DNA of 24,026 bases. Source: a virus. The notes below the pieces were generated by a model, which saw only the letters and a list, made by a program, of their open reading frames with translations, did not search any database and was not told the origin of the DNA. Within the stretch, counting starts at the first letter, position 1, and each line of letters opens with the position of its first letter. Made by a program: the position numbers and the translations under genes. The DNA is taken from positions 1-24,026 of the IMG/VR virus record IMGVR_UViG_3300036979_000364; one strand, 5' to 3'. Below, piece by piece: positions 4,132 through 22,069 of this stretch.

Positions 4132-4499
4132 CGGTGAAGTGGGCAGCGGGTATGCCGCGCATGCGGAAAAACGGCGGGCTTTTCTGTCTCGGTGACGTGG
4201 TCCCTGACGGCTACTTCACCGAGGCGGAGATCGCCGACCTCGTTTCACGCGGCAAGGTAACCGTTACCGAATCGAAGCAAGTCGAGATCGGAGCTCCCGA
4301 GCTCGTCGAACCCAAAGCTCCCGAGCTCGTCGAACCCAAAGCTCCCGAGCTCGTCGAACCCAAAGCTCCCGAGCTCGTCGAACCCAAAGCTCCCGAGCTC
4401 GAGGAGCACGAGGATCTCGACGAGCCCGACGAGCCGATCGACCTCGGAGCGGTAAGGGACAGGCCGAAGGGGAAACCCAAACGCGGGAGGAAACCATGA
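4128..4499 (+). CDS. Small unknown protein with APELVEPK tandem repeats
   Basis: This encodes 123 residues, with an ATGA overlap with the capsid gene. The N-terminal 45 residues (including GDVVPDGYFTEAEIADLVSRG) look like a small folded domain; similar short proteins often follow capsid genes in Mu-like and lambda-like clusters. Residues about 56-91 are a perfect tandem array of the eight-residue unit APELVEPK, four copies plus a partial fifth, followed by an acidic stretch and a basic end (KGKPKRGRKP). The Pro-Glu repeat is likely an extended, disordered linker. It could be a head-tail connector accessory or capsid-surface protein; no family is recognised with confidence. It is coupled to the next gene by a TGA/ATG overlap. 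Confidence 0.75.
   Translation: MTVKWAAGMPRMRKNGGLFCLGDVVPDGYFTEAEIADLVSRGKVTVTESKQVEIGAPELVEPKAPELVEPKAPELVEPKAPELVEPKAPELEEHEDLDEPDEPIDLGAVRDRPKGKPKRGRKP
4293..4400 (+). repeat. 24-bp in-frame tandem repeat, four and a half copies
   Basis: Identical 24-base units begin at 4293, 4317, 4341 and 4365, followed by a 12-base partial copy at 4389-4400. Each unit starts GCTCCCGAGCTCGTCG and encodes APELVEPK. The copies show no substitutions, so the array expanded recently or is kept uniform by slippage or recombination. Copy number changes would keep the frame. Confidence 0.97.
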
Positions 4500-5721: not shown

Positions 5722-6251
5722 TGACGTTAAATGACTATCTCAATTCTCTAAATGACGCGGAGCGAGTCGCTTTCGTGAAGCGCGTCGAGGCCGTCGGCAA
5801 TCAAACCGTTGACGTGTTTTCCGAGGCCCTGCCGAAGTGGTATGATCCAGAGGCCAGTTCACTAGACGTCAATTCCGTGTATGCGGTGCACAAGCACGAG
5901 GGGCCGGGTGGCTCGAGCCACTTTCATCTGTTATTGCTCGACTATCAATACGCCTATTGGGAGGACGCGGAACGCAAACCCGCGAAGCCGACGAAACCCG
6001 AGGACCCGGATCCAAAGGACGAGAAACCAGAAAACGACGTTAAGATCGTCGCGAGCAAAGCAGATAAGAAGTTTTTCAAGGCCACGGCCAAAGCTGACGG
6101 CTCTACCGAGGACGGGCCCTTGCACGTTTTCGGCTCGAGTTTGTATGACCCAGACAAACGCGTTTTCATTTTCCCCGGAACACAGAAAAAACAGCCGATC
6201 GAGGTCGGCGCAAAGCCGATCGAGGTCGGCACAGAGGAGACTAAGGCATGA
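5721..6251 (+). CDS. Unknown protein between tail terminator and sheath
   Basis: This encodes 176 residues. The frame is open further upstream, to an ATG at 5469, but that part lies wholly inside the terminator gene. The ATG at 5721 has AAGGA upstream and a TAATG coupling, so it is the chosen start. The first 85 residues look folded (helical start NDYLNSLNDAERVAFVKRVE, then HFHLLLLDYQYAYWED). Residues about 88-115 are a Pro/Lys/Glu/Asp-rich linker, and the end carries two copies of PIEVG encoded by a 17-bp direct repeat. No family is recognised. Position suggests a tail assembly or minor tail role. Confidence 0.7.
   Translation: MTLNDYLNSLNDAERVAFVKRVEAVGNQTVDVFSEALPKWYDPEASSLDVNSVYAVHKHEGPGGSSHFHLLLLDYQYAYWEDAERKPAKPTKPEDPDPKDEKPENDVKIVASKADKKFFKATAKADGSTEDGPLHVFGSSLYDPDKRVFIFPGTQKKQPIEVGAKPIEVGTEETKA
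6193..6230 (+). repeat. 17-bp direct repeat at 21-bp period
   Basis: AGCCGATCGAGGTCGGC occurs at 6193-6209 and again at 6214-6230, encoding the duplicated PIEVG near the C-terminus of the upstream unknown protein. It is a recent in-frame duplication just before the sheath gene. Confidence 0.9.
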
Positions 6252-7846: not shown

Positions 7847-8230
7847 ATGGCTTATGACGTAGCGGGAAGCAACGGCGCGCTCGAGATCGACGGAATCTCT
7901 TTCGACGTCGCCGCGGATTCGAATTTTTCCGTGACCCCGACCGAGTACGAAAATGATCTCGTCGCGACGAGCGGCAAGCCGATGATCAAGAAAATGCGCC
8001 GCACGCCCAACGTGGAAAGCGTGATCTTGATCTGCAATGCGGAAGACCGCTTGAAGCTCGAGTCGTTCAACGACTCCAAGACACCCTATGGCTTGTCATG
8101 GACGAACGCCGCCGGCGACACCTATCGCACGACGGGGATCATCCATTACGAGACATACGAGACCGAAGAGAATCGGTGCACGCTGACGCTGTTACCGCGT
8201 GAGCCGTGGGCACCATTCGTTGCTTCATAG
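7847..8230 (+). CDS. Tail tube protein, Mu gpM-like
   Basis: This 127-residue protein is the size and pattern of the Mu gpM tube family. It contains GALEIDGISFDVAADSNFSVTPTEYENDLVATSGKP, then MRRTPNVESVILICNAEDRLKLESF, and ends TLTLLPREPWAPFVAS. Tube subunits stack as hexameric rings inside the sheath. It lies directly downstream of the sheath, the standard order. A 24-base gap precedes the ATG. The AAGGGA element (7830-7835) is 11 bases upstream, rather far, so initiation may depend partly on coupling with the sheath gene. Confidence 0.88.
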   Translation: MAYDVAGSNGALEIDGISFDVAADSNFSVTPTEYENDLVATSGKPMIKKMRRTPNVESVILICNAEDRLKLESFNDSKTPYGLSWTNAAGDTYRTTGIIHYETYETEENRCTLTLLPREPWAPFVAS

Positions 8231-10957: not shown

Positions 10958-12303
10958 TGGGACTAGGCGACGCGATCGACAAACTAAAGGACCTGTTAGG
11001 CCTAGGCCCTGACGATTGGGCAGCTCGGCTTGCCGCGTCGATCGAGCTGACGAGCCCGAGCGGCAAACAGTTCTCACCGAAGTGGATTGGCAACGCCCGG
11101 AGCTTCGACAAAAAGCTCGGGATCTTTTCCTATCCGAAGCTCATTGGCAATGTCGTCCAAGACCTCGAGGCCAACTCCGCCCGCTATCCGTTGACGCTCT
11201 ACTTCGACGGGAAAGACAACGACCTCGATGCAGCGGCTTTTTTCGAGGCCGCTCGAGAGACGGGCCCGTGGGACGTAGTTCACCCGGTCCATGGGTACGT
11301 CCAGCTTCAGCTGATCTCGATCTCGGAGCAAGTTCAGCCCGTGACGAGCGGCGGGGTCACGGTGTTCGATACCGAGTGGATCGAGCCGATCGACCCGGAC
11401 GAGCTCGTCACCGCGCGTGAGCTGCAATCAAAAACCGACGAGGCGATCAAGGATCTGAACATCAACGCGGCGCAACAATTCGCGGACAACATAACCCAGG
11501 CTGCAGCGTCAGCGGTGAACGCGATCGCGAGCGCGGCGAGCCTGGTCTCAGCGATCATGGACGCTGCGACGAGCCCCCTTTTCGACTCGCTCGACGCGCT
11601 GAACAGCGTGGTCAATGCGACGCAAATCGCGCTCCAAAGCACGATCACTCAAGCTGAAATCATAGCTGACTCGCTGGCCGGGCAATTACAACAGCTGGCT
11701 CAACTCCCGGCGCTAGGATCTGGTAGCGGCTCATCGAAGCTCGACGCCTTTTCTAATGTGATTGACTCGGTCAGCGAGCAGCTCCCTTTAACGGGTCTTC
11801 CGTCATCCGAGGACATCGAGATCGTCAAGAATAGGGTCGCGGTGCACGAGCTCGCGCTAAACGCGACCGTGGGGGCGATCGCAAAGGTCGCGATTGTTTC
11901 CACGCTCGTCACGAGGTCTGACGCGCTCGTCCTCGCCGAGCGGCTTGGCGACCTGTCGACCACGATCATGGGCAACCTCGACACGACTCAACAAGCGTTC
12001 GACGACCAACCCGCCGATCTGCAATACGCCTCGAACGGCCAGACCTTCGCGAGCATCAACAATGTGATCACGCTCGCCACGCGCTACTTGTTAGCCGTTG
12101 CGCCGGATCTCAAGATCGAGCGACGGCAGATCCTCGACGAGCCTAAGACCCCGGTTCAAATCGTGCTCGAGGCCTATGGCGAGCTCGGTACGGATAGCGC
12201 GCTTCTCGATCTTTTCATCGAGGCGAACAAGCTCGGCGACACTCTCGACGGCAACGGGATCCTCGTGCTCGATCGCGGGTCGGAGGTCGTGACGTATGGT
12301 TAA
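10957..12303 (+). CDS. Mu gpN-like tail/DNA-circularisation family protein
   Basis: This encodes 448 residues. The N-terminal part (residues 25-150) matches the DNA circularisation N-terminal domain family: IELTSPSGKQFSPKWIGNAR, GIFSYPKLIGNVVQDLEANS, then RYPLTLYFDGKDNDLDAAAFFEAARETGPWDVVHPVHG. In Mu this protein, gpN, is a baseplate/tail component; the older circularisation name reflects early genetics. The middle and end are long Ala-rich helices (ITQAAASAVNAIASAASLVSAIMDAATS) and a C-terminal segment with RYLLAVAPDLKIERRQILDEPKTPVQIV and VLDRGSEVVTYG, as in the family. It sits between tape measure and hub genes, the Mu order. Its stop overlaps the next start by eight bases. Confidence 0.88.
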   Translation: MGLGDAIDKLKDLLGLGPDDWAARLAASIELTSPSGKQFSPKWIGNARSFDKKLGIFSYPKLIGNVVQDLEANSARYPLTLYFDGKDNDLDAAAFFEAARETGPWDVVHPVHGYVQLQLISISEQVQPVTSGGVTVFDTEWIEPIDPDELVTARELQSKTDEAIKDLNINAAQQFADNITQAAASAVNAIASAASLVSAIMDAATSPLFDSLDALNSVVNATQIALQSTITQAEIIADSLAGQLQQLAQLPALGSGSGSSKLDAFSNVIDSVSEQLPLTGLPSSEDIEIVKNRVAVHELALNATVGAIAKVAIVSTLVTRSDALVLAERLGDLSTTIMGNLDTTQQAFDDQPADLQYASNGQTFASINNVITLATRYLLAVAPDLKIERRQILDEPKTPVQIVLEAYGELGTDSALLDLFIEANKLGDTLDGNGILVLDRGSEVVTYG

Positions 12304-13585
12304 GCCAACCGCCGGCAGGCCTTATACGATCGTCCCGGGAGATAACCTCTCCAAGATCGCGGCCGCGGCGTATGGCAACCCTCGCGAGTGGCGAACGATC
12401 TGGAAAGCGAACAAGGCCAAGCTCCGGAGCGGTAACCCGAATCTGATCTTTCCAGGCGAGATCTTGTGGTTGCCGGAGCAAAACGTTCCCGTCGAAGAAG
12501 ACGAGGACACCGCACCCGATCGGCTCGAGGGGAAAGAGCCGGACGACTTCACGATCATCATCGAGGGGCTCGAGGTCCCCGTGGTCGACGGCAAGGCCTT
12601 TCGGTCCATCGACACCGTGGCCGACGGGTTCTCCGCGACGATACCTTGGGACCCCACACGTCAGACGGACAAGACAAAAGAGCTTATCTCGAAAGTGAAG
12701 CCCTACGGATACAAGGCTTGTGAGTGCTACCTTGGCGGCGAGCTCATGATGACCGGCCGGCTCTATGCCGTCGGCGCCTCGATCGATCAGAACGGCGTGA
12801 CGCTTGACCTCGAGGGCTGGAGTCATACGGCCGATCTGGTCGACTCGACAGTCCGGCCGCCGTACGAAGCAAAAAAGGTCACGCTCGAGCAGCGCGCAAC
12901 GTCCATGCTCGAGGGCTTCGCGATTGACCTCGACTTTCGACTCGAGGAGGACGAGCCTTTTGACAAGATCACGATCCAGCCAACGGACACGATCTTTAAC
13001 CACTTGCTCGAGCTCGCGCGTCAGCGAAAGGCCCTGGTCACGAGCGATGCCAAGGGGCGCCTCGTGATCACTCAAGCGAACACGGACGGCGGATCCGTCT
13101 ACACCTTGGAGGAAGGGCGTCGCCCGTTGTCGCAAGCGAAAATCCACTTCGATGGTCGAGCGCGTTTCAACTCTTACACCGCGATCTCGCAGTCGCCGCG
13201 GAAGAAAGGCAAAAACGCGTCCGCGCCGACGGCGACGGCGAAGGATGACATAGTCCCCGCGGCTCGAATGTACCGTTTCCAGGCAGACGACACGAAGGGC
13301 GAAAAGCTCCAAGAGGCTGCAGATTGGGAGCGGTCCAGGCGCCTCGCCGACGGGCTCAAGGTGTCGCTCCCCGTCGACGGCTGGCAAGTCCCGGGAACCA
13401 AGGACCTGTGGAAAGAGAACACGATCGTGACCTTGAAAAGTCCATCGCTGTTCATTCCTGACGGGTACGATTTTCTAATCCGTTCCGTCGAATACTCGTT
13501 TTCTGAGAGCGGCGCCGTCGCTAACCTCGAGCTCGTCCCGCCGGAAACGTTCACCGGCGAGCCCTTAAAGGAGCCATGGTTGTGA
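12296..13585 (+). CDS. Baseplate hub protein, Mu gpP-like, with N-terminal LysM
   Basis: This encodes 429 residues. Residues about 8-60 are a LysM domain (PYTIVPGDNLSKIAAAAYGN through NPNLIFPGEILWLPEQN), a peptidoglycan-binding fold also used in virions as a scaffold module. An acidic linker (about 63-78) leads to the hub: DFTIIIEGLEVPVVDGKAFRSIDTVADGFSATIPWDP, then the GQLYLGGELMMTGRL-like segment (ECYLGGELMMTGRLY), LEGWSHTADLVDSTV, and the C-terminal SVEYSFSESGAVANLELVPPE. The hub family (gp27/gpD-like) forms a trimer that links the tube to the spike. In Mu, gpP lacks LysM and in P2 a separate protein (gpX) carries it, so the fusion is notable. The start at 12296 overlaps the preceding gene. 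Confidence 0.87.
   Translation: MVKPTAGRPYTIVPGDNLSKIAAAAYGNPREWRTIWKANKAKLRSGNPNLIFPGEILWLPEQNVPVEEDEDTAPDRLEGKEPDDFTIIIEGLEVPVVDGKAFRSIDTVADGFSATIPWDPTRQTDKTKELISKVKPYGYKACECYLGGELMMTGRLYAVGASIDQNGVTLDLEGWSHTADLVDSTVRPPYEAKKVTLEQRATSMLEGFAIDLDFRLEEDEPFDKITIQPTDTIFNHLLELARQRKALVTSDAKGRLVITQANTDGGSVYTLEEGRRPLSQAKIHFDGRARFNSYTAISQSPRKKGKNASAPTATAKDDIVPAARMYRFQADDTKGEKLQEAADWERSRRLADGLKVSLPVDGWQVPGTKDLWKENTIVTLKSPSLFIPDGYDFLIRSVEYSFSESGAVANLELVPPETFTGEPLKEPWL
13567..13573 (+). promoter_or_regulatory. Ribosome binding site deciding the spike start
   Basis: AAAGGAG is two bases from ATG 13576 but eight bases from GTG 13582. The normal spacing favours the GTG start. Confidence 0.6.
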
Positions 13586-14124
13586 CAGTAACCGGTAAAG
13601 TTCTCGATAGCGAAGTGGGCCCGAACAAGGACGGTGACACGGACGTTAGGTTGCTAACGGTCGAGCTCGCCGACGGTGACGATATCCAAACCGTCGAGTA
13701 TTACGACTGCGGCGGTCGGGACTATCTCCCGCCGGACGGCGCCGAAGTCGTGATCGTGGACATCTCGCCTTCGTATCGCGTAGCGGTTGCCGTCGACGAT
13801 CGCCAAGACTCGGCGGTCGCCAAGGGTGAACAAGAGCTCTACTCGCTCGACGAAGCTGGAACGGCCAAAGCCGCGACGATCAAGCTCACGAATGACGCGG
13901 TCATCGAAATGAACGGCGACACGGATTTCGCCGTGAGGTATTCGGAGCTCGAGTCGGCTTTCAATCAACTCAAGCAAGACTTGAACGCGTTCATTCTGGT
14001 TTACAACACTCACACGCATGTCGCACCAGTTGGCGGGGGCGCCACCGGCGTTCCCAGCGCTACCGGGACCGACTCGGCCGCTGATATTAGCGGAGCCAAG
14101 ATCGAGGAAATAAAGGTGCCGTAG
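13576..14124 (+). CDS. Baseplate spike protein, Mu gp45 / gpV-like
   Basis: This 182-residue protein is the membrane-piercing tip of the Mu type. An N-terminal OB-like barrel (VTVTGKVLDSEVGPNKDGDTDVRLLTVELADGDDIQTVEYYDCGG, then LPPDGAEVVIVDISPSYRVAVAV) is followed by a short strand region (ATIKLTNDAVIEMNGD) and a C-terminal NTHTHVAPVGGGATGVPS segment. The HxH (His146, His148) is of the kind that binds iron at spike tips in P2 and phi92. The ATG at 13576 is only two bases after AAAGGAG (13567-13573). A GTG at 13582, eight bases after the same site and overlapping the upstream TGA as GTGA, is the likelier true start and would give 180 residues. Confidence 0.85.
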   Translation: MVVTVTGKVLDSEVGPNKDGDTDVRLLTVELADGDDIQTVEYYDCGGRDYLPPDGAEVVIVDISPSYRVAVAVDDRQDSAVAKGEQELYSLDEAGTAKAATIKLTNDAVIEMNGDTDFAVRYSELESAFNQLKQDLNAFILVYNTHTHVAPVGGGATGVPSATGTDSAADISGAKIEEIKVP

Positions 14125-14574
14125 ATGGCCTACGATCGAACACAGGGTGACCCCAAGATCAAGATCGACAGCGACGGCGCCGATCTCGTGTTCAAGGGTG
14201 GCCAGCCGGTCATGGATTCCGGGCTCGAGAACGCGGTCTTGATCTCGCTCTTCTCGAGCGCGGAGTGGTTCGGTAACGCGTTCGCCTCGCCGAGCTCGAG
14301 GATCGAGAGCCGCTTCTACCCGCTCACGCTCAAGTCGATCACCGCTTCGAGGCTCGCCGAGCTCGAGCGCGCGGTGAAAGCAGACCTCAAGGGCCTGGTA
14401 TCGCAAGGGGCCATTGCCGATCCCGTGGTCCGCGCGAGCAACCCGACGGGCGACCGGCTACTCATCGAGATCACGATCTCGCCGCCGGGCAAAACAACCG
14501 AAGTGATCTTGCTCTCGCGCTATGGCGCAAACTGGTCTGTCCAGACCTCCAACCCGGCGAGCTCGAGGGTGTAA
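14125..14574 (+). CDS. Baseplate wedge protein, Mu gp46-like
   Basis: This 149-residue protein belongs to the gp46 family (gp25/gpW-like role) that helps anchor the sheath to the baseplate. Family features are the start MAYDRTQGDPKIKIDSDG, the core VMDSGLENAVLISLFSS followed by WFGNAF, and SRFYPLTLKSITASRLAELERAVKADLKGLV. The end is a strand pair (DRLLIEITISPPGKTTEVILLSRYGANW). The ATG follows the preceding TAG directly, and AAAGGTG about seven bases upstream serves as ribosome site. Neighbours on both sides (gp45-like, gp47-like) match the Mu order. Confidence 0.88.
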   Translation: MAYDRTQGDPKIKIDSDGADLVFKGGQPVMDSGLENAVLISLFSSAEWFGNAFASPSSRIESRFYPLTLKSITASRLAELERAVKADLKGLVSQGAIADPVVRASNPTGDRLLIEITISPPGKTTEVILLSRYGANWSVQTSNPASSRV

Positions 14575-14576
14575 CA

Positions 14577-15782
14577 ATGGCGATCTCAATACCGACGACT
14601 CAACAACTTATCGACACCTTTGTGTCCGCCTTCGAGGCCAAGCTAGGTCAAACGGTCCCCGCGCTCGAGCGGAGTTTTATCTCGGTGCTCGCGCGGGTCC
14701 TGGCACTCTCCGACACTGGCCTCTACAAGTATGCTGCAAACCGGATACTGCAATCGCTGGCCATTACCGCGACCGGCGATAACCTCGATCTCATTGGGGA
14801 TAACTACGGTGTCTATCGGATCGCGGGGACCGCGGCGGAGATCAATGTCGTTCTCCTCGGGACCACGGGATCGACGCTCCCGCAAACGGCGGATCTTATC
14901 GCGGATAATTCCGGGGTGCGGTACTACCCCGAGACAGACGTTGCTTTCGACAACGCCCCCACGCCTGGACAAGAAACGTTCACGATCATCTCCGAATCGA
15001 TCGGGACCACGGGCAACGCCGTCAGCGGCGACACGTTCACGCTCACGTCACCGGTGACCGGCCTGGCTTCCGTTGCCACGTACGCGTCGACCGAGACGGC
15101 CGGCCAAGATCGCGAGGCGGATTCGGCCTACCGTAGACGGATCCTCGACGAGATCCGGACAGTCGGCGGAGCGGGCAACGGCGTGGATTATCGCCGGTGG
15201 GGCGAGCAGAGCTCGAACGTCGCGAGGGTCTACCCGTATTCGGGAAAGCCCGTGGACGGATCCGAGGGGCTCGTCGACGAGCCCGGGGATCGCACCGTCT
15301 ATGTCGAGGCGATCGAGGCCTATATCACCGGGGACCGGACGGCTGACGCGACGTTGCTCGCCGAAGTCCGAGCGTTGATCACAACCGACCCGGACACGAG
15401 CTTTGAACGCGTGCCCTTGGGTTGCCCGGATAACACCTTGTACGTCAAGTCGATCGCGAATCAAGACATATGGGTGACGATCTCGAACCTGACGGCGAAC
15501 GGTTCGACGTCGCTCGCGGACATAAAGACCGACGTCCAGGCCGCACTCGAGGGATACCTGCTCGAGCTCGCGCCGTACGTCGAGGGCGTGGACGTCGAGG
15601 TCGATCGCAACGACCGGCTGACTGACTTGTCCATCGCGCGGATCGTTCAGCAGATTCTAATCGACCTAAACGGGACAGCGACAGCGATCACGTTCTCACT
15701 CACCGAAAGCGGCTCGAGCGAGGGATCCTATGTGGTCCCGCAAGGGTATTTGACCCAGCTCGGCGGGGTCGATTATGTCTGA
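14577..15782 (+). CDS. Baseplate J-like protein, Mu gp47-like
   Basis: This 401-residue protein is of the baseplate J family, a main wedge component (comparable to T4 gp6) that forms the ring around the hub. It shows the family layout: N-terminal helix (TTQQLIDTFVSAFEAKLGQTVPALERSFISVLARVLAL), the LALTATGDNLDLIG-type segment (LAITATGDNLDLIGDNYGVYR), then AGQDREADSAYRRRILDEIRTVGGAGNGVDYRRWG near the middle. The later part has the VYVEAIEAYITGDRTADATLLAEVRALI strand-helix unit. A GAGGG site precedes the ATG. The end overlaps the next gene by eight bases (15775-15782). Confidence 0.9.
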   Translation: MAISIPTTQQLIDTFVSAFEAKLGQTVPALERSFISVLARVLALSDTGLYKYAANRILQSLAITATGDNLDLIGDNYGVYRIAGTAAEINVVLLGTTGSTLPQTADLIADNSGVRYYPETDVAFDNAPTPGQETFTIISESIGTTGNAVSGDTFTLTSPVTGLASVATYASTETAGQDREADSAYRRRILDEIRTVGGAGNGVDYRRWGEQSSNVARVYPYSGKPVDGSEGLVDEPGDRTVYVEAIEAYITGDRTADATLLAEVRALITTDPDTSFERVPLGCPDNTLYVKSIANQDIWVTISNLTANGSTSLADIKTDVQAALEGYLLELAPYVEGVDVEVDRNDRLTDLSIARIVQQILIDLNGTATAITFSLTESGSSEGSYVVPQGYLTQLGGVDYV

Positions 15783-16494
15783 TTTCAAGTATTCGGACGT
15801 CTTGCGAACGCTCTTTCCCAAGGGGCCTATATGGGCGTTCAAGGCGTTCGGCCACGCCGATAAGCTTATCGAGACGATCGGCGATGCCAAAGAGATCATC
15901 CGCGATTACTTGAAATCGTTGACCCATATCCGAACGCCGGACGCAACGCCGATCCTCGCCGACCTCGAACGCGAGTACGGGATCACCCCGGCGAGCTCAC
16001 TCACCGAGGCCGAGCGACGCGAGATCCTCGCGGGCTATGTTTACGCCAAGGCAGGCAGCGGCAAGGACGATTTGCAGGCCCGCTTGCACGCCGCCGGCTT
16101 CACCGATCTTTTTGTCCACCACAACGACCCCCTCGTGAATCCGTCCTACTACGCCGGCGGGCTCTGGTCAGCCGTTTGCGCGCACGAAGACACCGTTTGC
16201 GGAAACCAAGAGTGCTACTGCGGCCAACTTGGCGTAGGCGGTTACGTGCTCGCCAATGGGCCCGTGTATGACGACAACGGGAACTTGCACGAGTACACGA
16301 TCCCCGCGGGGTCCTCGACGTGGCCTATGGTGTTCTTTATCGGGAGCGCAAAGGGTGCGACCGTGGTTGGGTTCGTCGTATTCCAGGACGGGGATATGGA
16401 GTATGGCACTGACCCAGACAGTATCCTCGAGGACGGCGACGCGGAGCTTTCCACGACCTCGCTCTGGACAGCGGGAGAAGGGATCCCGTCATGA
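15775..16494 (+). CDS. Baseplate protein, Mu gp48-like (DUF2313), N-terminal part
   Basis: This encodes 239 residues. Residues 1-115 match the gp48/YmfQ family: MSDFKYSDVLRTLFPKGPIW, LRTPDATPILADLEREYGI-like segment, LTEAERREILAGYVYAKAG, and LQARLHAAGFTDLFVHHNDP. A Cys-rich stretch follows (C135, C142, C147, C149), then YTIPAGSSTWPMVFFIGSAKGA, which in family members leads shortly to a C-terminal end with L-K-x-KP-x-H-x-W. Here that end is missing; instead the frame runs into DGDAELSTTSLWTAGEGIPS and stops. A matching end is found at the terminus of the 1355-residue protein downstream. So this looks like the first piece of a gp48-like protein opened by an insertion. The ATGA at 16491-16494 couples it to the next frame. 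Confidence 0.82.
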   Translation: MSDFKYSDVLRTLFPKGPIWAFKAFGHADKLIETIGDAKEIIRDYLKSLTHIRTPDATPILADLEREYGITPASSLTEAERREILAGYVYAKAGSGKDDLQARLHAAGFTDLFVHHNDPLVNPSYYAGGLWSAVCAHEDTVCGNQECYCGQLGVGGYVLANGPVYDDNGNLHEYTIPAGSSTWPMVFFIGSAKGATVVGFVVFQDGDMEYGTDPDSILEDGDAELSTTSLWTAGEGIPS

Positions 16495-17123
16495 CGACCG
16501 TTTTAAGCAAGCCATCGGGCTATCGAACCGGCGGAAGTGGGGCGAGGGTTCTACGGATCACGGTGTCGTCACCATTCCCGCCGTCAGCCTACGCGCAACA
16601 CGAGCTCATATTGCTGGCCGGCAAAGAGTACCGGCTGCAGGGCTGGCTAAGGTCGGATTCCGTGAACGAGTTTGACCTTGCGATCTGGTCCTCGCGCGTG
16701 GACGAGGGCGGAGCGGATACCGAGATCTTCACGCTAAGCGGAACGGCCGCGTGGGCTCAATTCGACGAGACCTTTACCCCTGCGCATGACAGTTATTTGA
16801 GGTTTGGCGGGATCTATATCGAGGCTCCGACGGGCAATTTCTGGTTCGAGTTCGACGATATAACGCTATGGGCAACGGAAGACGTTCCCACGAACCCGAT
16901 ACTCTACTGGACAGCCGGCGGTGACGCGGTACTAGCGAAGGATCTCTCCGAAGTTTACGAGGGGCTGCAGAGCCTTTCCATCACCGCTGACACGAACGAC
17001 TTTTCGCAGCAAGACGTCAATCTTGACGAGCGTTACGCGACCGTGAGTGACGCGTTCGTCATGTTCGACGGCGGGAGCGGAGTGCTAAGAAGCCGCGTCC
17101 TAGATCCGGAGCCCCCAGCATGA
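16491..17123 (+). CDS. Carbohydrate-binding-like tail protein, starts inside a module
   Basis: This encodes 210 residues. Residues 1-125 align by eye with residues 325-448 of the next protein: VLSKPSGYRTGGSGARVLRI here against TLSKQSGTRTGGSGSLVIRV there, and FWFEFDDITLW against GHVEFDDVTIE. The pattern is that of CBM4/9-like beta-sandwich modules. However, the first strand of the module (LSTTSLWTAGEG) is encoded at the end of the preceding gene, in another frame. The second half (VLAKDLSEVYEGLQSLSITADTN) begins a further module. It begins and ends with ATGA overlaps. It may be a separately translated piece of one long adhesin or a frameshifted segment. Binding to host surface glycans is an inference. 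Confidence 0.7.
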   Translation: MTTVLSKPSGYRTGGSGARVLRITVSSPFPPSAYAQHELILLAGKEYRLQGWLRSDSVNEFDLAIWSSRVDEGGADTEIFTLSGTAAWAQFDETFTPAHDSYLRFGGIYIEAPTGNFWFEFDDITLWATEDVPTNPILYWTAGGDAVLAKDLSEVYEGLQSLSITADTNDFSQQDVNLDERYATVSDAFVMFDGGSGVLRSRVLDPEPPA

Positions 17124-20100
17124 ACAACACGCTTTCCAATGGCTTCGATGACCTCGAGGTCCCCGAGCTCGACGGCGGGACGAATGATTCGACCACGCTT
17201 TCGCTGACGTTCAACGGCGAGGACCAGGGCGCCAAGGGCACCATAACCCCGAGCGGGACCGCTGGCGCGATCACCGCGTGGGTCAAGGTCAATGACGCGT
17301 CGCGTGACGAGTCGTTCCGGCTTCGACCCCGGATCACCGGCTACAAAGCGCTTCCCGCCGCGCTGACGATCGACGGGGTTACTGTGCAACCCTCGATCCG
17401 GCTCGAGGGCGGGGACGCGGACGCGACGTCATGGGACGATGTAGTGAACAGCAAAGTGTATTCTATTGCCGGAAGTGGCAGTCTTCCAACGTTCGACGAG
17501 GAGTCACCGGGGATCGATTGCAAGCGAGTGAAATTCGGCGGTGCAAAATACTTCACGGGCGGAACCGCCATAGGCGTGGGCTCTAATGATATAGTCGTTG
17601 AGACGATTATCAGGGCAACGGACCTTTCGGGCGGCTTCTACGTAATAGCCGGGGACAGTTCGTCAGCCCCGGGTTTTTTATTATATCATAACGCGGCATC
17701 GAGTACTCTCACTCTCGGTTTACGCGACTCCGTACCAGTAACCGCGGGAATCAGCACACCAGGCTTGATTGAGGGCGCCTGGTACCATTTGATCTGGTTC
17801 ATCGACGAGAGCGGCAACGGTAGGTGCTATGCTAACGCCGCAGCAGGAACAGCAGTCGCGGTGTCGACCGTGGGCAGCATCAGCACAACAAACCTTTTTG
17901 CGATCGGTGCGGACGGCGCGGGGGGATACGCAGGTAGCTCTATTATATCTTATTTCGCCCTCTGGCACCGCGCGAGCTGGCTCGCTACCGCGGACTATGC
18001 CGGCATAGCCGCAAAGCGCTTTGCTCAATGCTGCGGAACCTACGCCGAGACGGCGCAATTAGTAAACCCCGGGTTCCTCGATCTCGATATGGAAGCCGCG
18101 GACGCCGCGTCATGGACTGCGCTAAACACCGCGACTCTGTCGAAGCAATCGGGAACGAGGACCGGCGGATCGGGATCGCTCGTGATCCGCGTCGCCGGCG
18201 ACGGTAGCACGTCTTCTCCCAAAGCCGCGCAAACCCGAGCCGGCGGGATAACCCGTGTCACCGGGTGGGCCCGATCGAACGGCGCTGCAGTCCCCACCGT
18301 GGCGCTCACGAGCACCACGATTTGGACGGGATCGAACTCGACGAGCTGGCAAGCTTTCGATATTGCCGTCTCGTCCTATCTCTACGCGTCCACGCGGCTC
18401 GAGCTCGGGACCGCGCTCGCAACTGGGCACGTCGAGTTTGACGATGTGACGATCGAGGTCGACGGCGCCATACCGACAACGCAGTCCAGATCGACCGTGG
18501 CTTACCTCGAGAAATGGAACATCGCCGAAACCGAGGCGTATTTAATCCCCGTCGGCCCAAACTGGACTAGAACGGATAAAATCAAGTGCACTGACGGGAC
18601 TTTTGAAATAGGGGCGAGGCTAGAGCAAGCGCAAGCGAACCTGTTTTTGTATTCCGAGGACTTTAGCAACGCCGCGTGGACAAAAACGCGTGTGACGCTC
18701 GGGACCTCGATAACGGGGCTCGGGAGCCTGACGTTCAACGCGATCGTGGCCAGCGTGGACAACGCAACGCATCTTGTCAGCCAAGGCGTAACAACCGCGG
18801 CGAGCGAGGACCACGCTGTTTCCATTTATGCAAAGGCCGGAGCAGGGACCGTAAACAGCATAAGGATCGAGCTGAACGAGGACGCAACACAGTACGCCTA
18901 TTATAACCTCGCAACGGGCGAGATCGGCGACGTCGGAGCTGGCTTCACCCTAACAGCGCCGGCGCACATATACCCAAAGGGGAATGGGTATTACCGTTGT
19001 GATTTCCGGCCCACTACCCCGGGAACTGCAGCGACGGTAAACATCTATCTGTCAAGCGGATCGACCGCGGGAAGCGAAACCTTCACCGGCGACGGAACCA
19101 CAGTGGGGGTGTACCTAGCCGGAGCGCAATTCGAGCGCCAGCTAGGCTCAAGCCAACACACGGGATCCCCTTCGAGCTACATAAAGACGACTTCCGCCAC
19201 GGTCACGCGAGTTAAAGATCTCGCGCTATATCACGGGTATGAGAATTGCGGCGGGCTAAATACCAAAAACGTCCACATGAAAGTGGATCACGTGTGCCTC
19301 GCTTTCGCAAACAACTATGTAGGGCTTCGCACCGCCGGATCACTCACGTCGAAAAGCGCAAACGACAGATCAGAAATCTACTCTGATATGTCCTCAAAAA
19401 AGTGGAATGCGATCGCAGTAACGGGCGGGACCACGCAAGCCAGTCTAGCGGCCACGACATCGACACCCTTTGATGACAACCTGCAAACAATCGAGGCGTG
19501 TTTCGCAAAAAACAACGTCGCGCTAGTGGTGAGCAAAACCGCCGAGGCTCGAGACACGTCAGCAACCATAAACCCAATGACCGAGATCGTCGTGGGTGCT
19601 AGCACCGGTTATTTGTACCACATTGACGGCATCATAACTGATTTCATTCTCTCGCCTTACGGGACCGAATACCCACGGGCGATCTTTGCGCTCGATAAAG
19701 ACGCCTACACCCAACAAGCGTTCGTGGGCTACGACATGCTCGACGATGACGCCTTGACGTACGAGCTCCGCGCCGGCGGCGGGACCACGCGACTAGTCAC
19801 AATGAACGGCGGGACCTTGAACGCCGGCACGTGGTATTTGATCAGCCTCGAATGGACGGGCGGGACCTCGGTTAGGATCCTAGTCAACGGTACCAGCGTG
19901 GACGGCGCGACGGCCGACGCGACGGTCGCCGAGCTGACCGATCTGTTCATTGCCTGGGCAGGGCTCAAGGGCTACACGTACGAGCCCGCAAGCGGCGATC
20001 CCGACTATCCGATCACCTACGGGGCGATCTCGATCGCGGACGTGCAACACCACGTCGCGGTCCCGCCGGCGGCCTGGTACACTGAAATGGTGGCCCGTGG

Positions 20101-21187
20101 CGTACCGGCGAAAAACGAGCATCTCATTCACCAGATCTCGCAAGTCGCGCAAGAGGCCGCGACTCACTATGACCTACTGACCGGAACGGAAGGGGCGATC
20201 ACCGATAGCGGGAGCATACTTGATTTCGTTCCGCCTACCGAGGTCGGGCTAGCGCTCGGCGCGAGCTCGACGAACAAGACGATCATCGACTTCGGGACGA
20301 ACTTCGCGTTCATGCAAGAGGCCTCGCACAGTTACGACGCTTGGATCCGCGTCGACGGTAGCGGGGATCAATGCATATGGGCGAACGGCGACGCAAACAC
20401 AACTGACTTTCAAGCGCTGCTTTACGACAACGCGACCGACTCGCTTGTATACAAGTGCGTCATCGGTGCGACCCTAAGATCGGTGAGCGCGGAGATCGAG
20501 CTCGATAGGCTCTACCACGTCACCGTCACGCGAGACTATGATAGCGGCGCGGGGACCACGGCGATCGCGATCTACCTCGACGCGGTCGCGGCCGATATCC
20601 AGATCTATTCCGGAGCCCCCGTGGTGACGAATGACGATTTCGTCATGCTTTCCTCCTCGACAAATATTGAAGAAGTAACATTCACGCTACCTTTCATCGG
20701 GGCGACCGTGGGCAATCGTTTTTATGATGACGCGTTGACCCAGGCGGAGATCGACGCGATCTATCTCGCGGACAGCGCGGTCATCTTGAACGGGCCATAC
20801 GCGACGCAAACGATCACGCCGGCGACCTTGCCCGCGACGATCTCGGGAGCTGTGAAGCCGGACGGGATCAACGGATATCCGATCGTTCTCGTTCAAGAGG
20901 ACAGCGGCGGAGCGTGGCGAGCGATAGCAACGGCGGAGAGCGAGACGGGTTACTCCGAGTTCTCGAAGCAAACCAAGGTCAATGACTTTAGGTTGTACGC
21001 AAAAGGGTTCAACACCTATGAGCCCGTCACGGCATACTTCGATGACCTCGACGGCGGAGAAGATCCCGGCGAGTTCACGATCGGGATCGTCGAGGTCGCG
21101 AAGAACAAGCGCAAAGCGTTAGAGAATCTCGTGCTCGTCCACAAGCCTTTGCACTCGTGGGCAGTAATGGTGGTCAAGTACATCTGA
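17120..21187 (+). CDS. Giant multi-domain tail adhesin with gp48-like C-terminal end
   Basis: This encodes 1355 residues, nearly all predicted beta. Modules by eye: a lectin-like (LamG/ConA) unit about 150-300 (IVVETIIRATDLSGGFYVIAGD, GAWYHLIWFIDESGNG); a CBM-like unit about 315-448; a phage-typical module about 505-700 opening NLFLYSEDFSNAAWTK; further lectin-like units about 715-850 and 855-985 (GTWYLISLEWTGGTSVRILVNG); and a LamG-like unit about 1045-1215 (SHSYDAWIRVDGSGDQCIWAN, YHVTVTRDYDSG). A small sandwich lies at about 1235-1310 (ISGAVKPDGINGYPIVLVQE). The last 30 residues, KRKALENLVLVHKPLHSWAV and after, match the end of gp48-type baseplate proteins. It is probably displayed at the baseplate edge to bind the host. 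A GGAG ten bases upstream serves the ATG, which overlaps the previous TGA. Confidence 0.8.
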   Translation: MNNTLSNGFDDLEVPELDGGTNDSTTLSLTFNGEDQGAKGTITPSGTAGAITAWVKVNDASRDESFRLRPRITGYKALPAALTIDGVTVQPSIRLEGGDADATSWDDVVNSKVYSIAGSGSLPTFDEESPGIDCKRVKFGGAKYFTGGTAIGVGSNDIVVETIIRATDLSGGFYVIAGDSSSAPGFLLYHNAASSTLTLGLRDSVPVTAGISTPGLIEGAWYHLIWFIDESGNGRCYANAAAGTAVAVSTVGSISTTNLFAIGADGAGGYAGSSIISYFALWHRASWLATADYAGIAAKRFAQCCGTYAETAQLVNPGFLDLDMEAADAASWTALNTATLSKQSGTRTGGSGSLVIRVAGDGSTSSPKAAQTRAGGITRVTGWARSNGAAVPTVALTSTTIWTGSNSTSWQAFDIAVSSYLYASTRLELGTALATGHVEFDDVTIEVDGAIPTTQSRSTVAYLEKWNIAETEAYLIPVGPNWTRTDKIKCTDGTFEIGARLEQAQANLFLYSEDFSNAAWTKTRVTLGTSITGLGSLTFNAIVASVDNATHLVSQGVTTAASEDHAVSIYAKAGAGTVNSIRIELNEDATQYAYYNLATGEIGDVGAGFTLTAPAHIYPKGNGYYRCDFRPTTPGTAATVNIYLSSGSTAGSETFTGDGTTVGVYLAGAQFERQLGSSQHTGSPSSYIKTTSATVTRVKDLALYHGYENCGGLNTKNVHMKVDHVCLAFANNYVGLRTAGSLTSKSANDRSEIYSDMSSKKWNAIAVTGGTTQASLAATTSTPFDDNLQTIEACFAKNNVALVVSKTAEARDTSATINPMTEIVVGASTGYLYHIDGIITDFILSPYGTEYPRAIFALDKDAYTQQAFVGYDMLDDDALTYELRAGGGTTRLVTMNGGTLNAGTWYLISLEWTGGTSVRILVNGTSVDGATADATVAELTDLFIAWAGLKGYTYEPASGDPDYPITYGAISIADVQHHVAVPPAAWYTEMVARGVPAKNEHLIHQISQVAQEAATHYDLLTGTEGAITDSGSILDFVPPTEVGLALGASSTNKTIIDFGTNFAFMQEASHSYDAWIRVDGSGDQCIWANGDANTTDFQALLYDNATDSLVYKCVIGATLRSVSAEIELDRLYHVTVTRDYDSGAGTTAIAIYLDAVAADIQIYSGAPVVTNDDFVMLSSSTNIEEVTFTLPFIGATVGNRFYDDALTQAEIDAIYLADSAVILNGPYATQTITPATLPATISGAVKPDGINGYPIVLVQEDSGGAWRAIATAESETGYSEFSKQTKVNDFRLYAKGFNTYEPVTAYFDDLDGGEDPGEFTIGIVEVAKNKRKALENLVLVHKPLHSWAVMVVKYI

Positions 21188-21205: not shown

Positions 21206-22069
21206 ATGTTAGATTTCTCGGGCTTCGATAACACAAGCGGATCTTTCCCGAACGTCGAGGCGACCGACTCGAGCGGGCCCACGCTACGCGACGGAACGCC
21301 GATCAACGCGAATCTGATAAATGATATTTGGGGCGGGTTTCAAGCGATCTTGAACGCTGCAGGGACCACGCCGAGCGATGGCGTCGAGACCTCGAGCGCG
21401 AGCGATCTGCTCGACTCGATCCGCAAGCTCGGCGGGGCTCCCGGTGAGGTCGTGCTATACGCCTCGCCGAGCGAAACCATCGACGCGAATATTCTCCCAC
21501 TCAAAGGGCAGATGATCACGATCTCCGCCTATCCCGCTCTCGTCGCCGCGACCTACATTGGTGACACGAATAACCCGGTGGCGAACTTCCCCGCGTTCTA
21601 TAAAGCAAGTGACGTCACCGGTTTTGTGCGCAACACCGCGGGACCCTATTTCAGGCTCCCCGATTGCCGCGGCTATTGTCTTCGCGCACTAGCCGGCGCC
21701 CGTACGGGCGTGGACGCCTATCGTGATTACTACACTACGTTACTTGGAGTCGACCATCGCAACATGTCGGGCCTGACCACAGAATACAGCCCGGGATGGC
21801 ATATCCACGACATTGAGACGGACGACGGGGATCAAGTGCTAGAAGAGCTCAACTATGTCATGAGAGCGAACCCGGGCAACGTAACGGGCTCGGGGGGTAC
21901 AGTGGCCACATACGCAAACTACGTTTGGAAAAAAACAACCGCCGCATCTTACGACCTCGTCACAAAGATCAGCAGGCTGGCCTCGCCGGTCACTGATTTC
22001 GGAGTGAACGCCAGTTACAACGAGGTCTATCCGCGGAACGTCGGCTTTCAACTCGGAATCCGGTACTAG
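21206..22069 (+). CDS. Tail fibre protein with tail-collar domain
   Basis: This encodes 287 residues. The N-terminal part (RDGTPINANLINDIWGGFQAILNAAGTTPSDG) is typical of proteins that attach short fibres to the baseplate. Residues about 78-165 form a phage tail-collar domain: GEVVLYASPSETIDANILPLKGQ, then ISAYPALVAAT and YFRLPDCRGYCLRALAG. The end, RNVGFQLGIRY, resembles the conserved terminus of such fibres (N-x2-x-x-IRY). HIH at 199-201 in the distal part could bind metal, as HxH sites do in several fibre tips, but a single HIH is weak evidence. A GAGGAG site after the adhesin stop gives a clear independent start, one of few in the cluster. Confidence 0.85.
   Translation: MLDFSGFDNTSGSFPNVEATDSSGPTLRDGTPINANLINDIWGGFQAILNAAGTTPSDGVETSSASDLLDSIRKLGGAPGEVVLYASPSETIDANILPLKGQMITISAYPALVAATYIGDTNNPVANFPAFYKASDVTGFVRNTAGPYFRLPDCRGYCLRALAGARTGVDAYRDYYTTLLGVDHRNMSGLTTEYSPGWHIHDIETDDGDQVLEELNYVMRANPGNVTGSGGTVATYANYVWKKTTAASYDLVTKISRLASPVTDFGVNASYNEVYPRNVGFQLGIRY

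Follow-up and report, generated by a model that had tools for sequence, protein, structure and literature searches.

At this locus a gene for what appears to be a gp48-type baseplate wedge protein stops short of the end that its family possesses, and a sequence resembling that end lies on a much larger protein encoded downstream. Is this one wedge protein divided by an insertion and, if so, what was inserted, and how might the separated parts be brought together? The locus lies in a 24,026-base IMG/VR record from an uncultured virus of bacteria, a metagenomic contig referred to here as the window, which carries the gene set of a contractile-tailed phage (head genes, tail sheath, tape measure, hub and baseplate genes).

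Gene order at the locus

The genes concerned are as follows.

14577-15782, plus strand: baseplate J (gp47-like), upstream neighbour of ORF1 (Baseplate_J, 1.2e-27)
15775-16494, plus strand: ORF1, 239 aa, 720 bp
16491-17123, plus strand: ORF2, 210 aa, remainder of a first carbohydrate-binding-like module and a second region (module alignment; weak CBM_4_9 match, below cut-off)
17120-21187, plus strand: ORF3, 1355 aa, lectin-like and carbohydrate-binding-like modules (Laminin_G_3 in three stretches)
21206-22069, plus strand: short collar/tail fibre protein, downstream neighbour of ORF3 (phrog_26525, tail fiber protein)

The order gp46-like, gp47/J, gp48, fibre is that expected of a Mu gp48 / BW3 locus, and homologues of the collar/fibre gene come after gp48 in compact relatives. 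A first-pass annotation, which placed ORF1 correctly, had proposed that the gp48-like gene was opened by an insertion; the proposal is supported, with the amendment that ORF2 (16491-17123) had been overlooked and that the region consists of three ORFs with ATGA overlaps. Elsewhere in the window, a perfect 24-base tandem repeat of 4.6 copies is present at 4292-4401, within a 123-aa ORF that follows the gene for the major head protein; the related contig L003 starts at about window position 5754, so this repeat falls outside the comparison with L003.

Two ends of one gp48-type protein on separate ORFs

Two segments, at opposite ends of the three-ORF region, were assigned to gp48.

15775-16350, plus strand: gp48/BW3 core, ORF1 residues 1-192 (gp48-family profile, phrog_203, phrog_4920 and Mu gp48 matches)
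21071-21184, plus strand: gp48/BW3 C-terminal piece, ORF3 residues 1318-1355, the last 38 (profile positions 225-262, decoy test, phrog_4920, dN/dS)

Sixty-three compact relatives, all from outside the window's clade, supplied a gp48-family profile of 262 positions. ORF1 matched positions 6-225 of this profile (128 bits) and, in a PHROG search, the gp48-like families phrog_203 (baseplate wedge subunit) and phrog_4920 (33 bits), the latter match ending at position 216 of 253. The tail of ORF3 matched positions 225-262 (20.2 bits). These matches are complementary, adjoining at profile position 225, and thus represent both ends of one gp48 family, as the first-pass annotation had proposed. The match of the ORF3 tail is not due to chance: it scored 27.5 bits in a decoy test in which neither 20,000 shuffles nor 1,415 other C-termini scored above 9.5. 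Searched in isolation against PHROG, the tail found phrog_4920 as its sole family (positions 221-253 of 253, E 0.02, a weak match when taken alone).

When the flanks of the insert were joined, a search that the first-pass annotation had suggested, the phrog_4920 match rose to 48.7 bits over positions 33-253, against 33 for ORF1 alone. PF10076 (Phage_Mu_Gp48) scored 13.4 bits with the joined flanks and 12.9 with ORF1, short of the gathering cut-off of 37.4. Compact relatives likewise fell under this cut-off, and on these scores the window gp48 is filed as a distant homologue of the PF10076 family, not as a Pfam member. When the subfamily profile was searched against PDB it matched the Mu gp48 chain 9ki1_a (E 2.7e-9), indicating homology of the N-terminal core, the alignment being trustworthy in the N-terminal half only. 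An alignment that forced the end of ORF1 onto the gp48-family C-terminus was misaligned and was discarded. Cysteines at regular spacing in ORF1 (16175-16235, CAHEDTVCGNQECYCGQ) belong to a family-wide CG-x-x-x-A-x-CG pattern, a structural repeat.

Both segments have evolved under purifying selection relative to L003 (ORF1, dN 0.016, dS 0.34; last 80 codons of ORF3, dN 0.011, dS 0.22). This bears on the suggestion that ORF2 and ORF3 are separate adhesins, that the gp48 piece on ORF3 is only a relic or a tag for docking, and that the wedge depends on ORF1 alone or on a gp48 elsewhere in a genome that is incomplete. Such an arrangement is distinctly unlikely, given the selection acting on the ORF3 tail, the retention of the C-terminal piece by every full-length compact relative used, and the lack of a second gp48 copy in six frames of the window or L003, both of them incomplete genomes.

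The insertion site in relatives

The 63 compact relatives encode both gp48 ends within one gene. Phages Scuro, VP16C, VP16T and SFCi1 have a compact gene of 240-269 codons, with both ends visible in alignment. In five viral loci (L065, L071, L074, L093 and L097) the compact gp48 lies between a homologue of the window's J gene and homologues of its collar gene and of the 273-aa gene downstream, and the distance from neighbour to neighbour is about 4.7 kb greater in the window than in these five. The uninserted relatives with which the first-pass annotation had advised comparison are thus available with the same genes on either side, and no relative came to light whose 720-bp gene ends complete at that stop and bears no relation to the large protein. 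The insert of about 4.7 kb also stood, its junctions lying nearer 16351 and 21071 than the 16390 and 21075 originally given.

An apparently simpler arrangement is seen in L081, syntenic with the window, where a single ORF of 490 aa carries approximately 225 extra residues at the same site. In AlphaFold2 models, strands 218-220 (ATR) and 227-230 (LTAI) of the compact L065 protein border a loop at 221-226, and strands 226-228 (ATY) and 453-456 (LTGI) of the L081 protein border its insert; the order of strands and helices is identical on either side, the flanks being confident and the L081 insert poorly modelled. The models thus place the insertion site in one beta-hairpin loop, which separates the core of gp48 from a conserved C-terminal strand-helix-strand. 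Foldseek searches with both models gave weak scores, with contractile baseplate wedge proteins among the top matches, without reliable superposition. An insert starting at the same place in L094 runs off the contig, and a search for its far end returned only the L094 contig itself. GTDB genomes yielded one distant match (L085).

Other departures from the compact form were also encountered. The protein common to L101 and L102 has an internal insert at an earlier site, before the C-terminal half (L101:8833-10134), and in L104 and L105 a BNR-repeat (propeller-like) extension follows an otherwise complete gp48 (L104:8995-10623). The gp48-type protein seems to have accommodated adhesin-like domains more than once. 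A compact gp48 without insert occupies two overlapping frames in L082 (7438-8198, frames ending at 7872 and 8198), through frameshift or error.

An array of adhesin-like modules

16351-21070, plus strand: adhesin array of about 4.7 kb, comprising the end of ORF1, the whole of ORF2, and ORF3 up to its gp48 tail; absent from the 63 compact relatives, with a smaller same-site insert in L081

Description of the insert as a chain of lectin-like and carbohydrate-binding-like modules was borne out by Laminin_G_3 matches in three stretches of ORF3 and, weakly, by CBM_4_9 in ORF2. In a small pairwise search, the last part of ORF1 and the first part of ORF2, taken together, matched a module of ORF3 (E 3e-11). 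This combined stretch, a carbohydrate-binding-like module cut at the ORF1/ORF2 junction in the window, also aligns with L094, where it runs uninterrupted. ORF3 residues from approximately 500 to 700 resemble tail proteins of many phages. The types of module present predict that the array would bind receptors. No close relatives of ORF2 or ORF3 were found in IMG/VR beyond the contigs already described, and a search for target-site duplication at the ends of the insert gave only a 9-base match, a length expected by chance. In the first lectin-like region of ORF3 (17427-17877), nucleotide identity to L003 drops to ~40-65%, compared with ~88-96% in the flanks, as if modules had been exchanged.

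Conserved breaks between the three ORFs

16491-16494, plus strand: ATGA, ORF1 stop/ORF2 start, within a carbohydrate-binding-like module; identical in L003 and L004
17120-17123, plus strand: ATGA, ORF2 stop/ORF3 start; retained in L003 and L004 despite diverged surroundings

The source being a metagenomic contig, a chimera or false frame breaks arising in assembly or sequencing had to be considered. Such an artefact is extremely improbable and is contradicted by L003 and L004, which have the same layout: three-way identity with the window is 86% over 12296-17300, with no indels at the junctions, and since the ORF junctions are common to all three (the L004 contig stopping early in ORF3) they are not sequencing errors. 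L003 has a complete ORF3 with the same gp48 tail. The core of gp48 and the C-terminal piece lie on different polypeptides, one carbohydrate-binding-like module also being divided, and the break between ORF2 and ORF3 is not clearly within a known domain. Judged by its reading frames, gp48 is split over polypeptides and not merely enlarged.

Shine-Dalgarno-like sequences precede the starts of ORF2 and ORF3 in the window, L003 and L004, the GGAG for ORF3 lying 8 nt 5′ of its ATG in all three. No RNA structure beyond that of shuffles was detected at the junctions, and Rfam gave no match within the window. A run of 175 bases across the ORF1/ORF2 junction (16396-16570) is invariant in the window, L003 and L004 (longest run in 1000 shuffles, 87), and may reflect either recombination or constraint on the gene break.

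The main rival to three co-translated chains is that −1 frameshifting at both ATGA sites yields one polypeptide of approximately 1,800 residues, in which gp48 is interrupted yet covalently whole. This would fit the need for an identical −1 shift at both breaks, the position of the first break inside a module, the existence of a single-chain form in L081 and the invariant 175 nt around the first break in three contigs. However, no slippery heptamer is seen at the junctions, RNA structure there does not exceed that of shuffles, both internal ATGs have Shine-Dalgarno-like sequences, and the stretches upstream in the ORF2 and ORF3 frames do not read as protein. Frameshifting is therefore less supported than three co-translated chains, and we consider it unlikely.

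A proposed split wedge protein

The sequences themselves contain both gp48 ends, the loop position, compact relatives, a same-site insertion in L081 and a conserved three-ORF layout. We propose, with reasonable confidence, that the locus encodes a wedge-3 (gp48/BW3) protein of predicted function that bears a modular array of adhesins, its three chains being co-translated and then assembling. Carbohydrate-binding-like and lectin-like modules would have entered gp48 in series at one surface beta-hairpin loop. A single message would serve for ORF1-3, with termination and reinitiation of translation at each ATGA overlap; overlaps of this kind couple translation by that route and are enriched among complex subunits (PMC10666635). 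ORF1 would take its place in the wedge, ORF2 would complete the module begun by ORF1, and the ORF3 chain would dock via the missing gp48 C-terminal piece, so that the wedge protein would be restored without a covalent link.

The Mu baseplate has six wedges with a single gp48 in each, and this protein sits at the wedge periphery and carries a loop on which the fibre docks (PMC11915804). A Mu gp48 / BW3 protein builds the wedge along with two J subunits. The insertion loop lies directly before the conserved C-terminal helix, near the location of the Mu docking loop, and this position suggests that the two may be equivalent. By analogy with Mu, copies of the array would ring the baseplate close to the point at which Mu docks its tail fibres, and may bind host surface glycans alongside the short collar fibre.

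In its most specific form we favour the proposal only slightly: a naturally split wedge protein, in which two non-adjacent chains, through coupled translation, complement one wedge fold, the array being locked in by the wedge's own strand and helix, and in which adhesin modules have settled more than once in one loop of gp48-type proteins. The split, if true, would constitute a natural protein-complementation system inside a virus particle. More broadly, the locus would be an unusually large case of host-recognition parts incorporated in viral core machinery: a core contractile-tail wedge protein could turn into a receptor-binding platform with both ends kept, the compact and single-ORF relatives being apparent simpler states. 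It also identifies a candidate tolerant loop in gp48-type proteins, and warns annotators that pieces of baseplate proteins can hide in large ‘tail fibre’ genes.

Comparison with known systems

Mu gp48 (baseplate wedge protein 3, PF10076, PDB 9ki1) occupies the same place in the gene order as the window gp48, after gp46-like and gp47/J, and shares with the window subfamily a homologous N-terminal core and a C-terminal helix with a K(Y/H)KP motif; unlike the window gp48, it is one chain of 180 residues without insert. The first-pass annotation had regarded the locus as an unusual route to host range. The split is indeed unusual, but sugar-binding modules on BW3 have been described: gp119 of Vp4 (Herelleviridae BW3) has carbohydrate-binding modules missing from relatives, with cell binding demonstrated (PMC11406892). 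It too is a myophage wedge protein 3 carrying carbohydrate-binding modules (binding by the window array being predicted), although of the A511 gp105 type, with two modules in one 831-aa chain and no multi-ORF split reported.

In evolved Dit/Tal proteins of siphophages, carbohydrate-binding modules occur in loops of a structural baseplate protein (PMC7291167). Adhesin-like modules within a structural-protein loop are thus common to these and to the window, in which one hairpin loop is concerned, whereas in Dit the host is a galectin domain of a non-contractile tail and one to two modules are carried on one chain. Division of a coding region by an insertion into chains that reassemble is known from Aeh1 nrdA and phage 25 gene 43 (PMC2988022). 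There, as in the window, parts of one protein are on separate ORFs, the chains of the window being expected to associate; in Aeh1 nrdA, by contrast, the inserted gene encodes a homing endonuclease and the divided products are enzymes, while the window insert consists of adhesin-like modules continuous with both halves. A limited search of the open-access literature found no gp48-type wedge protein with a multi-kilobase adhesin array over three ORFs. Module-bearing baseplate proteins and split phage enzyme genes are already known, and the unusual part here is the split of the wedge protein.
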